Shown here: positions 18,191-60,899 of the stretch, one piece after another
Numbering within the stretch: position 1 is the first letter of the stretch
Layout: every line of letters begins with the position of its first letter
From: an uncultured Clostridia bacterium
GTDB taxonomy: Bacteria; Bacillota; Clostridia; Oscillospirales; Acutalibacteraceae
DNA: 64,000 nt
NCBI GenBank assembly: GCA_947631855.1
Contig: CANRMX010000004.1
Coordinates: forward strand, 1 to 64,000
Reading direction: 5' to 3'
The notes under the pieces: model-generated
Database searches by the model: none
What the model saw: the letters and a program-made list of their open reading frames with translations, nothing else
What the model was told of the DNA's origin: nothing
Made by a program: the position numbers and the translations under genes

Positions 18191-18367
18191 CAGGCTAAGC
18201 CTGCACGCACTTCGCGGGACGCACGCTTAGGGCGTGCTGGTGCGTGCTGGAAACGACTTTTCCGGTCGCGGAACTTACTGCCTGCTGGAAACCGGTGAGC
18301 TTCGCTTGCACGCAACTTTCCTGGAGCCATATAACAGTGCCTCCTCCGCCGTAGGCGGAGGAGGCAC
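18190..18367 (+). repeat. Composite dispersed repeat R1
   Basis: Starts caggctaagcctgcacgcac, continues with gctggaaacgacttttccgg, tcgcggaacttactgcctgc and agcttcgcttgcacgcaac, then ctggagccatataaca, and ends in the hairpin gtgcctcctccgcc/ggcggaggaggcac (18337-18367). The order of blocks is the same at 24672-24849 and 57376-57547. The end hairpin lacks a T run here. Confidence 0.8.
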
Positions 18368-18429
18368 AATTTATATCTTTCGGGCGGCAGGATATTTTTT
18401 CTTCTCCCCACGCTTCGACATCTTTCGTG

Positions 18430-18458
18430 TTGATTTTCCCCTGCCGCTATGGTAAAAT
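18430..18458 (+). promoter_or_regulatory. Promoter and candidate operator of hairpin-RNA unit A
   Basis: TTGATT (18430-18435), 17 bases, TAAAAT (18453-18458). The -35 box is overlapped by the imperfect inverted repeat TCGACA-N7-TGTTGA beginning at 18416, present in all six units of the window. Confidence 0.75.
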
Positions 18459-18464
18459 AACATT

Positions 18465-18649
18465 GCGACATAATTTATTTCTTTTTTCCTATCCTTACAA
18501 GAAAAGCACGCAGCTTTGCCTTTTGGCAAAAATGCATGCTCTGCTTTTCATTATGCGCGCTTGCTTGTAATGGATAAGAAATAAAATTGTGTCGCAGCAA
18601 TTGGAGCCATGCGTTTTTCGGTGCGCGGCTCCGGCTGCGCACTTTTTTT
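18465..18649 (+). ncRNA. Hairpin RNA unit A (type a), upstream of HTH gene
   Basis: Predicted RNA of about 185 nt from seven bases after the -10 box to the terminator T run. The basal stem pairs gcgaca (18465-18470) with tgtcgc (18590-18595); long arms around 18471-18501 and 18564-18589 continue it with a bulge, and the apex pairs tttgcc with ggcaaa around a UUUU loop. The tail holds ggagcc-atgcgttttt-cgg and the terminator gtgcgcggc-tccg-gctgcgcac with seven T (18621-18649). The arms share little with the other units, but pairing is kept. Single unit at this locus. Confidence 0.65.
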
Positions 18650-18664
18650 ATTGGAGGTACCGCC

Positions 18665-18871
18665 ATGATGCAGATCGTCAATGCCAGTCAGCTTGTAGAC
18701 CAGTTGGCCGCGCTTCGCAAAGAAAAAGGCATGAGCCAGGCCCAATTAGCCCAGGCCGTAGGACTGAGCCGCGCCATGATTTCGTACTTTGAAGAAAAGA
18801 AGGTCTTTCTCCGCTTCAATACCCTGCTCCGGGTGATGGATGTGCTGGGCGTGAAAATGTATCTCAAATAG
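18665..18871 (+). CDS. HipB-like helix-turn-helix protein, copy 1
   Basis: A 68-residue XRE/Cro-type protein: MMQIVNASQLVDQLAALRKE, then the HTH in GMSQAQLAQAVGLSRAMISYFE, then a strand ending in VKMYLK. Overall it matches the small DNA-binding HipB antitoxin fold (QLxxxLRxxxGxSQxxLA, then a C-terminal strand for dimerisation), but no hipA lies nearby. GGAGG (18653-18657) comes four bases after the RNA terminator and seven before ATG. With no room for another promoter, expression must come from readthrough of the terminator. The proteins at 29112 and 58388 are near-identical. Confidence 0.85.
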   Translation: MMQIVNASQLVDQLAALRKEKGMSQAQLAQAVGLSRAMISYFEEKKVFLRFNTLLRVMDVLGVKMYLK

Positions 18872-18911
18872 CTGTGCTGTCCACACACAAATAACCCAGA
18901 GCCATATAACA

Positions 18912-19083
18912 GTGCCTCCTCCGCCGAAGGCGGAGGAGGCACTTATCTTAGTTCGGTCGAGCCAAATGTGTGCGGCCCAGCCCAATTTCGGGCGCGACCG
19001 GAAAATCAATCCCGGGTCTTCTCTCTGTCAGTTGGGGCAAACCGCGTAAAGCTTTTTGTCAAACTTTTTCTCGAAAAAGTTTG
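18912..19083. repeat. R1-type hairpin and R2 element before the EF-G-like gene
   Basis: Hairpin gtgcctcctccgcc/ggcggaggaggcac (18912-18942) after gagccatataaca, then ttagttcggtcgagcc, and an R2 palindrome copy at 19044-19083 (gcgtaaagctttttgtcaaa and its inverted partner). The first hairpin may terminate the HTH transcript. No gene is seen. Confidence 0.75.
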
Positions 19084-24671: not shown

Positions 24672-24849
24672 GCGCAGGCTAAGCCTGCACGCACGACGCG
24701 GGGCATGCGCCTGGGGCGCATGGATGCGCAAAGGAAACGACTGGCCCTATCGCGGAACTTTTTGCGTGCTGAACGCAAGAGAGCTCCGCTTACACGCAGT
24801 TGCTCCAAGCTACATAACAGTGCCTCCCCGCCCTTCGGGCGGGGAGGCC
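24672..24849 (+). repeat. Composite dispersed repeat R1
   Basis: Same block order as at 18190: gcaggctaagcctgcacgca, a palindromic gcatgcgcctggggcgcatg, gaaacgactggccctatcgc, gaactttttgcgtgctg, cgcttacacgcagttgctcc and the hairpin tgcctccccgccc/gggcggggaggc (24820-24849). Confidence 0.75.
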
Positions 24850-24910
24850 ATAATTATAGGGCAGGGAGGCACAATAATATCTATTGGGCGCGGCAAAAAG
24901 CGGTCGAACC

Positions 24911-28523: not shown

Positions 28524-28623
28524 TACTATCTTAAGTTCGGTGGAGCCAAGTGCGTGCAGCCTCAGGCTGCCGGGCCGGAGGCGGGGGAATAATTTTTGTG
28601 CCCATGCTTCGACAGGATTCGTG

Positions 28624-28840: not shown

Positions 28841-28908
28841 ATTTTTTCTTTTTTATCCCCCCGCCGAAGGCGGGGGAATAATACTAATGTGCTTCGACAG
28901 GATTCGTG

Positions 28909-28937
28909 TTGATTTTTCCATTCGGTCATGGTAAAAT
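28909..28937 (+). promoter_or_regulatory. Promoter and candidate operator of hairpin-RNA unit B2
   Basis: TTGATT (28909-28914), 17 bases, TAAAAT (28932-28937), with the same overlapping inverted repeat. Confidence 0.75.
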
Positions 28938-28943
28938 AAACTT

Positions 28944-29096
28944 GCGACACAACGGAATATTTTTACCAAGGGGCATGCCTTGTTTTGGCAAAAACGCATG
29001 TTCCACTTTTGGTCCCTTGGTTGAGCAAAAGCCGTTGTGTCGCAGCAATCGGAGCAATGCGTTTTTCGGTGCGCGGCTCCGGCTGCGCACTTTTTT
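28944..29096 (+). ncRNA. Hairpin RNA unit B2 (type c), upstream of HTH gene
   Basis: Predicted RNA of about 153 nt. Basal stem gcgacacaacgg (28944-28955) with ccgttgtgtcgc (29032-29043), second stem accaaggg/cccttggt, apical stem ggggcatgc/gcatgttcc with inner gtttt/aaaac. The apical strand aaaaacgcat is perfectly complementary to atgcgttttt in the tail. Terminator gtgcgc...gcgcac at 29069-29090 with six T. Almost the same hairpin occurs in unit C at 57683. Confidence 0.65.
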
Positions 29097-29111: not shown

Positions 29112-29324
29112 ATGATGCAGATCGTCAACGCCAGTCAACTGGTAGATCAGTTGACCGCGCTGCGCAAAGAAAAAGGCATGAGCCAGGCACAATTGGCCGA
29201 GGCAGTGGGCGTGAGCCGCTCCATGATTTCGTACTTTGAGGCGAAAAAAGTCTTTCTCCGCTTCAACACGCTGCTGGCGCTCATGCACCAGCTGGGCATG
29301 GAAGTATATTTTGAAGAAAATTGA
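29112..29324 (+). CDS. HipB-like helix-turn-helix protein, copy 2
   Basis: A 70-residue protein near-identical to copies 1 and 3 through the HTH (GMSQAQLAEAVGVSRSMISYFE) and FLRFNTLL, diverging only at the C terminus (LMHQLGMEVYFEEN). GGAGG at 29100-29104 lies directly after the terminator T run of unit B2, and there is no other promoter. The role is presumed DNA binding, possibly at the inverted repeat in the unit promoters. Confidence 0.85.
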   Translation: MMQIVNASQLVDQLTALRKEKGMSQAQLAEAVGVSRSMISYFEAKKVFLRFNTLLALMHQLGMEVYFEEN

Positions 29325-40205: not shown

Positions 40206-40234
40206 TTGACAGAAGCGCCCGCTTCTGCTATACT
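40206..40234 (+). promoter_or_regulatory. Promoter of rplJ-rplL
   Basis: TTGACA (40206-40211), 17 bases, TATACT (40229-40234); the spacer is itself an inverted repeat, gaagcgcccgcttc. Confidence 0.85.
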
Positions 40235-40240
40235 GTGTAA

Positions 40241-40448
40241 GCTGTCCAACCGAAGACAGCAGGTCGCTTTTCAAGCGGTAAACGGTTTACCGGCCTGCCG
40301 AGGAAAGACGTTTGATGACAGGGAACGGTTCCGTTCCGCAGATTCTTTCGCTTTCACCGCCTTTCTTCGGTTTCCACCGGGAAAGGCGTTTTTCGTTGGT
40401 CGACCCGCAGGCTTGTCCTGCCATCCTATCATCCGGAGGTGAAATGAT
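40241..40448 (+). promoter_or_regulatory. L10 leader with attenuator hairpin
   Basis: The leader has ccgaagacagcagg paired to cctgccgagg, the conserved core of the L10-binding leader found upstream of rplJ in Firmicutes. Further on, cgcctttc (40358-40365) and gaaaggcg (40381-40388) with TTTTT form a terminator, so L10-L7/L12 excess may favour early termination. Confidence 0.8.
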
Positions 40449-42865: not shown

Positions 42866-43065
42866 GCAATTCCAAAACGTGCAGGCAGTGCGGCGCACCT
42901 CTTGGGGCGGACGATATCGCCATCTACAAGAAGCTGGTGAATCGAGGCGCGGAAGAATTCTTGTGCATCGACTGTCTGGCGGCGTACTTCGATGTGGCCC
43001 GGGAGGAGATCGAGAAGCGCATCCGCTACTACCGGGAAAGCGGCGAGTGTACGTTGTTTCGATGA
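42862..43065 (+). CDS. Small zinc-ribbon protein coupled to the alpha-galactosidase gene
   Basis: The 67-residue product starts at GTG overlapping the preceding TGA (GTGA). It has two CxxC pairs, TCRQCGAPLG and FLCIDCLAAYF, around IYKKLVNRGAEEF, so likely a zinc ribbon, and a charged helix AREEIEKRIRYYRE. Function unknown. Two copies of its last 40 codons follow in tandem. Confidence 0.7.
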   Translation: MSNSKTCRQCGAPLGADDIAIYKKLVNRGAEEFLCIDCLAAYFDVAREEIEKRIRYYRESGECTLFR

Positions 43066-43123
43066 TTTTTGATTCCAGCCCCGCCTGGCGGCGGGGCTGG
43101 AAAGCTGCGTGAAGGGAATTCGG

Positions 43124-43235
43124 AAGAGTTTCTCTGCATCGACTGTCTGGCGGCGTACTTTGATGTGGCCCGGGAGGAGATCGAGAAGCGCATCCGCTAC
43201 TACCGGGAAAGCGGCGAATGCACGCTGTTTCGATG
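43124..43235 (+). pseudogene. Truncated zinc-ribbon gene copy 2
   Basis: Keeps EEFLCIDC to CTLFR and stop, lacks the first CxxC and any start codon in frame; identical at protein level to the end of 42862-43065. Confidence 0.7.
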
Positions 43236-43295
43236 ATTTTGTGATTCCAGCCCCGCCGCAAGGCGGGGCTGGAAAGCTGCGTGAAGGGAATGCGG

Positions 43296-43408
43296 AAGAT
43301 TTCTTGTGCATCGACTGTCTGGCGGCGTACTTTGACGTGGCCCGGGAGGAGATCGAGAAGCGCATCCGCTACTACCGGGAAAGCGGCGAATGCACGCTGT
43401 TTCGGTGA
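43296..43408 (+). pseudogene. Truncated zinc-ribbon gene copy 3
   Basis: Keeps EDFLCIDC to CTLFR and stop (one Glu to Asp change). A frame starting at 43109 runs into it, but its first part is the out-of-frame reading of copy 2 and the hairpin. Confidence 0.7.
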
Positions 43409-43425
43409 TTTTTGATGATTTGCAG

Positions 43426-57547: not shown

Positions 57548-57647
57548 TAAATAATTAACTTGCGGCGAGCCAAGCGAAAGCGGCGTCACGGCGCCCCGCC
57601 GAAGGCGGGGGGATAATTTTTGTGCCCTTGCTTCGACAGGATTCGTG

Positions 57648-57676
57648 TTGATTTTTCCATTCGGTCATGGTAAAAT
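57648..57676 (+). promoter_or_regulatory. Promoter and candidate operator of hairpin-RNA unit C
   Basis: TTGATT (57648-57653), 17 bases, TAAAAT (57671-57676); TCGACA-N7-TGTTGA overlaps the -35 box. Confidence 0.75.
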
Positions 57677-57682
57677 AAACTT

Positions 57683-57834
57683 GCGACACAACGGAATATA
57701 TTTACCAAGGGGCATGCCTTGTTTTGGCAAAAACGCATGTTCCACTTTTGGTCCCTTGGTTGAGCAAAAGCCGTTGTGTGGCAGCAATCGGAGCAATGCG
57801 TTTTTCGGTGCGCGGCTCCGGCTGCGCACTTTTT
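57683..57834 (+). ncRNA. Hairpin RNA unit C (type c), first of array 3
   Basis: Differs from unit B2 at only two positions in the hairpin. One is in the 3' basal arm (gtggc instead of gtcgc), which breaks one pair with the 5' arm gcgac; that 3' arm matches the type b/d units, as if a crossover had joined a type c 5' part to a neighbour's 3' part. Terminator at 57808-57834. Confidence 0.65.
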
Positions 57835-57900
57835 ATTTTTTCTTTTTTATCCCCCGCCTCCGGCGGGGGATAATACTAATACGCTTCGACAGATTTCGTG

Positions 57901-57929
57901 TTGATTTTCCCCTGCTGTCGTGGTACAAT
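57901..57929 (+). promoter_or_regulatory. Promoter and candidate operator of hairpin-RNA unit D
   Basis: TTGATT (57901-57906), 17 bases, TACAAT (57924-57929), same inverted repeat. Confidence 0.75.
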
Positions 57930-57935
57930 ACTCTT

Positions 57936-58102
57936 GCCACGTAAATTTTAATAAATGCATTAACTGGATGGAGAGCTTTTTACTTCGGTAAAAATGCTCG
58001 CTTTCCTTTCCTTTCCCATCTAGTTAATGCAGAAATGGAATTTGCGTGGCAGCAACGGGAGCGAGGCATTTTTCGGTGCGCGGCTCCGGCTGCGCACTTT
58101 TT
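57936..58102 (+). ncRNA. Hairpin RNA unit D (type d)
   Basis: Basal stem gccacgtaaatt (57936-57947) with aatttgcgtggc (58039-58050), then tgcattaact with agttaatgca, and an apical stem gagcttttt-ac closed by a UUCG loop and gtaaaaatgctc. Tail ggagcgaggcattttt and terminator 58076-58102. No HTH gene follows. Confidence 0.65.
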
Positions 58103-58169
58103 ATTTTTTCTTTTTTACCCCCCCGCCTCCGGCGGGGGATAATACTAATACGCTTCGACAGATTTCGTG

Positions 58170-58198
58170 TTGATTTTCCCCTGCTGTCGTGGTACAAT
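58170..58198 (+). promoter_or_regulatory. Promoter and candidate operator of hairpin-RNA unit E
   Basis: TTGATT (58170-58175), 17 bases, TACAAT (58193-58198). Confidence 0.75.
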
Positions 58199-58204
58199 AC
58201 TCTT

Positions 58205-58372
58205 GCCACGTAAATTTTAATAAATGCATTAACTGGATGGAGAGCTTTTTACTTCGGTAAAAATGCTCGCTTTCCTTTCCTTTCCCATCTAGTTAATGCA
58301 GAAATGGAATTTGCGTGGCAGCAACGGGAGCGGGGCATTTTTCGGTGCGCGGCTCCGGCTGCGCACTTTTTT
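58205..58372 (+). ncRNA. Hairpin RNA unit E (type d), upstream of HTH gene
   Basis: A tandem duplicate of unit D, 269 bases further on, with the same hairpin and one visible change in the tail (cgggg for cgagg). The terminator (58345-58372) ends four bases before the GGAGG of the HTH gene, whereas unit D is followed by a T-rich stretch and a gcggggg hairpin. Confidence 0.65.
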
Positions 58373-58387
58373 ATTGGAGGTACCGCC

Positions 58388-58594
58388 ATGATGCAGATCG
58401 TCAACGCCAGTCAGCTTGTAGACCAGTTGGCCGCGCTTCGCAAAGAAAAAGGCATGAGCCAGGCCCAATTGGCCCAGGCCGTGGGACTGAGCCGCGCCAT
58501 GATCTCTTACTTTGAGGAGAAGAAAGTCTTTCTCCGCTTCAATACCCTGCTCCGGGTGATGGAAGTGCTGGGCGTGAAAATGTATCTCAAATAA
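58388..58594 (+). CDS. HipB-like helix-turn-helix protein, copy 3
   Basis: 68 residues, differing from copy 1 (18665-18871) only by Asp to Glu in the C-terminal helix (RVMEVLGVK). HTH in SQAQLAQAVGLSRAMISYFE. GGAGG at 58376-58380. Its DNA sequence from the terminator through most of the gene matches copy 1 with few silent changes. It closes an array of three hairpin units. No toxin-like gene is beside it. Confidence 0.85.
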   Translation: MMQIVNASQLVDQLAALRKEKGMSQAQLAQAVGLSRAMISYFEEKKVFLRFNTLLRVMEVLGVKMYLK

Positions 58595-58630
58595 TCGTGC
58601 AGTACGGCCAGCTGGTGCAAGCAAGACAGA

Positions 58631-58656
58631 AGTGCCTCCCTTTGAGGGGAGGTACT
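58631..58656 (+). terminator. Terminator of the third HTH gene
   Basis: agtgcctccc-tttga-ggggaggtact followed by a T run. It belongs to the same hairpin family as the R1 ends. Confidence 0.8.
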
Positions 58657-60498: not shown

Positions 60499-60899
60499 GA
60501 AACGCGAAGTGGATGCAGCGTCACGCGGCAGTGCGGCCTGATTTGCGGTTTGCACGGGCTGGCGGGCGCGACCGAAAAATTTTCCGTTTGTGCGCGGCAA
60601 GCGAGCACGGCGAACGGAGAACGCGAAGTGGATGCAACGTCACGCAGTGGTGTAGCCTGATTTGCGGTTTGCACGAACTGGCGGGCGCGACCGAAAAATT
60701 TTCCGTTTGTGCGCGGCAAGTGAGCGCAGCGAACGGAGAACGCGAAGTGGATGCAGCGTCACGCGGCAGTGTGGGCCGATTTGCGGTTTGCACGAACTGG
60801 CGGGCGCGACCGAAGAATCTTCCGTTTGTGCGCGGCAAGTGAGCACAGCGAACGGAGAACGCGAAGTGGATGCAGCGTCACGCTGCAAGGAGGATGCCC
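60499..60899 (+). repeat. Tandem 119-120 bp repeat ahead of the SH3 lipoprotein gene
   Basis: Units begin acgcgaagtggatgca at 60501, 60621, 60740 and 60859; three are complete and the fourth runs into the ribosome site of the next gene. Shared blocks are ttgcggtttgcacg, ggcgggcgcgaccgaa, ttccgtttgtgcgcggcaag and gcgaacggagaacgcg. The 119-base period shifts the frame, so it is non-coding. In the last unit gcagcg-tca-cgctgc is a perfect hairpin over the ribosome-site region; it is imperfect in the others. Confidence 0.85.

Follow-up and report, generated by a model that had tools for sequence, protein, structure and literature searches.

Attenuators and riboswitch expression platforms are leader RNAs with a terminator just before the start codon and mutually exclusive helices (PMC2965389, in its accessible parts). 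The RNA units described here share these traits and differ from them in having no known ligand, varied downstream genes, tandem whole units, a predicted long-range pseudoknot between two segments termed A and B, and no match in Rfam 15. The AbiF system RNA (RCd22) and type III toxin-antitoxin loci likewise combine a sigma-A promoter, a structured RNA, a terminator and a protein gene reached by readthrough (PMC12373285, accessible parts), as do our units, but the protein is here an XRE regulator and elsewhere varied, and the RNA has a candidate antiterminator and is without short repeats; according to the same text, the type III repeats measure 34-50 nt and lie within one RNA. The SLH motif, one of the orphan riboswitch candidates in the available text of PMC6429828, is also an orphan leader RNA before cell-surface genes, in Clostridia among others; its gene set differs from ours, and the two are set apart by description, not by alignment. 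HTH-XRE genes are furthermore among the commonest neighbours of the candidate RNAs in another study (PMC8040213, available portion). With respect to the protein, the 68-aa XRE product resembles HipB/Y4mF-type regulators (TIGR03070, HipB structures), with matches to HipB-like XRE models and to HipB chains in PDB, but it scores below the NCBIfam cut-offs and is encoded behind an RNA. The locus does not appear to be of the HipBA type: no HipA_C match exceeded the cut-off in the source genome assembly (1.84 Mb, 81% complete), the one weak match (20.6 bits versus 30.5) being on another contig. PADLOC gave weak matches to HTH-bearing models only.

The window is the whole stretch of 64,000 nucleotides that was analysed, from an uncultured Clostridia bacterium. 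The original prediction of one, two and three units at 18.4, 28.6 and 57.6 kb agrees with the sequence and with a repeat search (families D1, D2, D5, D6 and D8). The parts assigned to each unit were also recovered, i.e. a sigma-A-like promoter, a hairpin RNA of 153-184 nt and an intrinsic terminator, and at all three loci an HTH gene stands behind the last unit only, as predicted, with its start codon 16-17 nt past the fifth T of the terminator. The features are as follows:

18414..18458, forward strand: operator-like block TTCGACA-N3-TTCG (18414-18427) and sigma-A-like promoter TTGATT-17-TAAAAT, locus 1
18464..18647, forward strand: locus 1 leader RNA unit, with P1 hairpin, apical A strand, B segment and terminator
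18665..18871, forward strand: locus 1 XRE/HipB-like HTH gene, 68 aa
28608..28840, forward strand: locus 2 unit 1, with block 28608-28621, promoter, RNA from 28658 and terminator; no gene directly behind
28893..29095, forward strand: locus 2 unit 2, with block 28893-28906, promoter, RNA from 28943 and terminator
29112..29324, forward strand: locus 2 XRE/HipB-like HTH gene, 70 aa
57632..57834, forward strand: locus 3 unit 1, with block 57632-57645, promoter 57648-57676, RNA from 57682 and terminator
57885..58102, forward strand: locus 3 unit 2, with block 57885-57898, promoter 57901-57929, RNA from 57935 and terminator
58154..58371, forward strand: locus 3 unit 3, with block 58154-58167, promoter 58170-58198 and RNA 58204-58371
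58259..58273, forward strand: apical strand A of locus 3 unit 3 (AAAAATGCTCGC...), predicted to pair with B
58325..58342, forward strand: tail segment B of locus 3 unit 3 (CGGGAGCGGGGCATTTTT), a predicted partner of either A or the terminator (C)
58345..58371, forward strand: intrinsic terminator of locus 3 unit 3 (segment C and T-tract)
58388..58594, forward strand: locus 3 XRE/HipB-like HTH gene, 68 aa, 16 nt past the terminator

The promoters read TTGATT-17-TAAAAT/TACAAT, the foot of P1 lies 5 nt past the -10 box and a typical terminator is GTGCGCGGCTCCGGCTGCGCAC-T5+. Scanning positions 57600-58650 gave four promoter-like and four terminator-like sites (shuffle means 1.0 and 1.8, respectively), and three of each are those of the three units of locus 3, the last of which has a folding energy of -79.5 kcal/mol (z = -9.0 relative to 200 dinucleotide shuffles). 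The arms vary between units of the window, yet entire units recur in the repeat search: 28890-29095 and 57629-57834 are 99% identical, and 57830-58098 shares 97% identity with the copy that follows it. The nearest neighbours in the window with a Pfam assignment are MatE, DUF1846, EF-G, SpoIIP and M23 peptidase genes.

Other repeats were noted in the window. Common intergenic GTGCCTCC..GGAGGCAC hairpins and GCAAACTTTTTCGAGAAAAAGTTTG repeats (18325-18375, 18900-18950, 24808-24858 and others; D11, D15, D16, I5 and I7) are perhaps terminators or a genome-specific repeat family, and further tandem repeats occupy 708-1050 (approximately 58 nt, D10), 42895-43409 (approximately 172 nt, D3) and 60501-60883 (approximately 119 nt, D4). 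The sole Rfam match of the window at gathering score is L10_leader at 40232-40403.

Membership of a known Rfam family, which the original prediction had named as a ground for abandoning it, was not seen on the units scanned in Rfam 15. Units of the window and of 11 loci gave no match at gathering score, and relaxed searches of the window array and 20 loci gave weak, chance-level matches on units (best 18.9 bits versus a gathering score of 70) or matches off the unit. One rejected candidate, RF04178 in locus L049, scored 39.2 bits (gathering 174.8) and falls outside the unit, on its downstream side. Nor did the main texts of the open-access literature, supplements apart and in the parts available (including PMC8040213, PMC2864571, PMC6429828, PMC2965389 and PMC12373285), yield a description of the RNA family.

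The tail-plus-terminator pattern was present in 24 of 250 genomes of the same bacterial family, source included, and its reversed form in none of the 250. A tail model of 76 positions was then applied to larger samples (model R1 was built from pattern-selected sequences); with the source genome counted, at the family level it matched 118 of 300 genomes, spread over 60 of 135 genera, and at the order level 85 of 245, spread over 51 of 126 genera. In a phylum sample the source genome alone matched (1 of 348), but samples of more than 40 genomes were searched with stricter filters and this search recovered 13 of the 18 source-genome matches, so that absence beyond the order is not absolute. Scanning named genomes gave at least 116 stretches, and among the 80 titles listed 78 are Clostridia, one is an uncultured bacterium and one is Candidatus Woodwardibium; part of the 78 name groups that we take to be Clostridia. 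As a whole, the related loci suggest an affinity to Oscillospiraceae-like Clostridia. RNA units were also present on 21 stretches of a viral collection, several near-identical to each other, and on two unannotated faecal contigs among phage records, where they precede other genes; a 301-base query had no match among plasmids. In six of the viral-collection loci (L281, L283, L287, L277, L288 and L294) the RNA precedes a small protein family (MSDNKNSNKNVSG.../MGTKSNKNISG...). The units apparently belong to a large, order-wide, undescribed leader-RNA family. Of the conserved flanks that were to be sought in relatives, the RNA was found across the order, and for the XRE gene no homologue was seen in the 299 other family genomes at E 1e-9.

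Anatomy was compared across 151 units; these remained from 165 model matches on fetched loci (76 + 89) after 11 second copies of the same place and three partial units had been left out, and they include some near-identical units and were fetched from the best-scoring matches, hence are a non-random sample. P1 has a helix score of at least 12 in 150 of the 151, and in 142 a -10-like box stands 2-12 nt before it; eight units do not fit the normal P1 foot. Since P1 was located by best pairing, comparisons that include controls deserve more weight. A stricter test placed a promoter immediately before P1 in 130 of 150 units, compared to 9 of 150 control windows. With arms set by promoter and tail position rather than by complementarity (101 units), the mean energy of the P1 duplex was -16.3 kcal/mol for cognate and -9.2 kcal/mol for non-cognate arms. 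Columns 2-12 of P1 each show at least three standard pair types, counts that are inflated since P1 was chosen by best pairing with its first two pairs required.

In the apical part of the hairpin, GG(U/C)AAAAA is followed by bases that can pair with the end of the tail, immediately ahead of the terminator. A usable A/B pair is present in 145 units, 100 of which have the exact A5 + U5 with a stricter A motif. Cognate and non-cognate means over the 145 were -15.0 and -10.6 kcal/mol for A:B, and -15.9 and -12.7 kcal/mol for B:C, in which B pairs with the loop and 3' arm of the terminator. For P1, A:B and B:C alike, none of 2000 permutations (which ignore relatedness) reached the observed cognate mean. 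When sequences were exchanged between the most similar units differing on both sides, the cognate partner was better, equal or worse in 109, 9 and 1 cases for P1, in 83, 15 and 19 of 117 for A:B, and in 70, 23 and 26 of 119 for B:C. Pairs 1-5 of A:B past the A5/U5 block are standard in 100, 99, 97, 82 and 72 of the 100 units, where independent columns would give 90.7, 83.0, 94.3, 70.8 and 49.5. In a set chosen by terminator pattern only, which shares some places with the 151 units, 70 of 82 cases carried the A motif, compared to 21 of 425 control windows. The P1 helix was present in 76 and the -10/P1 start in 65 of the 82, each compared to 13 of the 425 windows. Covariation accordingly supports P1, the A:B helix and, less strongly, the antiterminator B:C, for which support is moderate: the cognate partner was the worse one in 26 of the 119 swaps, and a large part of the pairing shows conservation instead of covariation.

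On these data we consider it probable, at roughly 70%, that the units constitute an undescribed, order-wide family of cis-acting transcription attenuators, here amplified along with an XRE gene and with an operator-like block specific to the units. An intrinsic terminator lies between promoter and start codon, and the conserved B:C helix (moderate support) is an alternative that excludes it. B is unable to pair fully with A and C together; A:B and B:C hence compete for B, as they would in a terminator/antiterminator switch that also has an anti-antiterminator. Anatomy, distribution, covariation (P1, A:B and the weaker B:C), gene order and purifying selection on XRE were computed directly, and from sequence we infer the transcription start, switching, sensing and XRE autoregulation. 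Transcription would begin near the foot of the long hairpin P1 and would normally stop at the terminator approximately 140-215 nt further on. In the predicted OFF state B would pair with the apical strand A, forming a pseudoknot if P1 is closed and leaving the terminator free, and in the ON state B would pair with the terminator loop and 3' arm (C) as an antiterminator, such that the gene is read; some signal would tip the balance between the two. When the energies are crudely summed, OFF comes out ahead by a median of 6.0 kcal/mol (IQR 3.7-9.3), with no penalty yet charged for the pseudoknot. This bias counts against an attenuator, as do the moderate support for B:C, the absence of an evident ligand pocket and the lack of a pathway common to the downstream genes. 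The earlier claim of a regulatory RNA upstream of a DNA-binding protein holds to the extent that the RNA looks regulatory and, on the units scanned, has no Rfam 15 match.

Two other kinds of attenuator were considered and rejected. For a leader-peptide type, the three frames are open in 47, 48 and 44 of the 151 units, with none preferred. For an antisense-controlled, plasmid-type attenuator, an antisense promoter-like site occurs in 25 of 151 units versus 30 of 149 control stretches, and in a fixed-step scan in 7 of 150 units versus 14 of 151 controls. Of 29 antisense sites, 16 share a position 46-51 nt before the 3' end, at which conserved GCAA yields a -35-like TTGC; a minority of units may use an antisense promoter.

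In 105 of the 151 units a Shine-Dalgarno sequence and ORF start lie no more than 60 nt past the terminator, at a median distance of 20 nt and with 95% of them within 39 nt, so that hardly any room is left for another sigma-A promoter. The other 46 have no such start within 60 nt, which also speaks against the attenuator reading, and 14 of them are, in our reading, array-internal. Each of these 14 has a terminator but is not directly followed by a gene, and they are left unexplained by a role in cis alone. They would suit stand-alone small RNAs that act in trans on mRNAs, on a protein or on each other, with the downstream gene read by terminator leak, as would the promoter and terminator that bound every unit and the recurrence of arrays in other genomes. 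We nevertheless judge this unlikely as an account of the family in view of the 105 closely spaced starts and since A, B and C co-vary within a unit, as an intramolecular switch predicts. The free upstream units may be by-products of duplication or a source of RNA acting in trans.

The genes behind the RNA are diverse. Scanning 119 downstream proteins gave 70 families in all, and the 25 listed include 16 BspA-type LRR_5, eight HTH_3, five ABC_tran, five double zinc ribbon, four CHAP, three EcoRI-like methylase and three MazE-type proteins. Downstream ORFs of L022, L031 and L058, assigned to these loci by sequence likeness, match an EcoRI-type adenine methylase family. An N-terminal hydrophobic segment was predicted by a rough hydropathy test in 61 of 91 downstream proteins compared to 51 of 183 other ORFs preceded by a Shine-Dalgarno sequence (downstream proteins of at least 100 aa, XRE loci of the source genome left out, comparison ORFs from the named loci), and by this test the targets lean towards exported or membrane proteins.

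This diversity bears on the proposal that RNA and HTH gene form one defined module, which we do not uphold: across the order the RNA precedes many unrelated gene types, and no XRE homologue was seen in the 299 other family genomes at E 1e-9. It bears equally on an addiction-like RNA-protein module in the style of type III toxin-antitoxin systems, where the RNA would bind the encoded protein. The order of parts (promoter, RNA, terminator, protein gene) is the same and RNA units occur in tandem, but the downstream protein changes with the genome (BspA-type LRR, ABC, XRE, methylase, zinc ribbon), is here XRE instead of an RNase, and no ToxN is among the 25 of 70 families listed. Moreover, short repeats in one precursor are absent; the repeats are complete promoter-RNA-terminator units approximately 190-310 nt apart, versus the within-RNA repeats of 34-50 nt in the accessible text of PMC12373285. 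We therefore regard such a module as very improbable.

Equally improbable, in our assessment, is that promoter and RNA form a selfish or mobile cassette, one that is spread by recombination and takes genes with it. The 99% identity between units of loci 2 and 3 and the 21 viral-collection stretches would fit it, as would a genome of the same genus (G217) without a unit between its MatE and DUF1846 homologues. In this empty-site comparison the DUF1846 gene was found at E 1e-30 only in G217 out of three same-genus genomes, and its MatE neighbour is in the other orientation, so that an insertion is not datable. Elsewhere, arms and genes differ and the promoter/start-codon spacing is tight, which fits a regulatory role, and no positive evidence was found for the suggestion that the units are possibly selfish.

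Returning to the attenuator reading, its use in the source genome centres on XRE. The genome has 18 tail matches, of which one is truncated at the edge of its contig. It also has ten XRE genes, nine close copies and one at 39% identity, each with a unit directly upstream. Across eight copies of equal length pN/pS is 0.08, and the protein thus appears to be under purifying selection. The block TTCGACA-N3-TTCG upstream of the -35 box occurs exactly 17 times genome-wide (once for a reversed-pattern control), always in unit promoters, 15 beside tail matches and two on contig edges. The block resembles tandem 0A boxes, and the genome encodes Spo0A, but its restriction to unit promoters fits a putative unit-specific operator better than possible Spo0A binding. 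The XRE protein probably binds this block over its own promoters and would thereby regulate itself. One XRE-controlling attenuator would then have been copied to 9-10 loci and tandemly multiplied in places, and the amplification is plausibly a lineage-specific, self-regulated use of the leader. A divergent unit of the same genome (L018, G000:C10:24584-24660) has an ABC transporter ATPase gene downstream, not XRE.

Five arrays of units are present in the source genome. Same-strand tandem units occur elsewhere (L050, L095, L103, L114, L127 and L137) and in seven of the 80 named loci (L187, L194, L195, L202, L210, L213 and L220), L127 and L194 being apparently one five-unit array in a Ruminococcus record, as both contigs measure 38558. 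In L194 (6629-7558) the five units lie approximately 210 nt apart, and two types with differing terminators alternate before an ORF starting MKVAIVGSRDYY. The presence of tandem units in several other genomes indicates that array growth by whole units recurs, consistent with the predicted growth by addition of units. To our knowledge, arrays of full promoter-switch-terminator units before one gene are unusual.

A more far-reaching interpretation, which we offer as tentative, is a new class of signal-sensing RNA switch that is present in about a third of the sampled species of one gut Clostridia order and governs a large, changing set of envelope and accessory genes; array-internal units would be free RNAs setting dose or threshold, and here the switch would be wired to a self-regulating family of ten XRE proteins. 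Attenuation as such is a known kind of control; neither Rfam 15 nor the open papers, as far as their texts were available and supplements apart, yielded this RNA family with its competing A:B and B:C helices, its gene set and its complete units in tandem. Where several full units precede one gene, the effect of additional leader copies can be examined directly. As a structured RNA family with strong covariation, these leaders would bring a new regulator to a bacterial group whose genetics is hard to access and which is mostly known from gut metagenome assemblies; since the targets lean towards exported and membrane proteins, the family may shape the surface that these bacteria show to host and phage.
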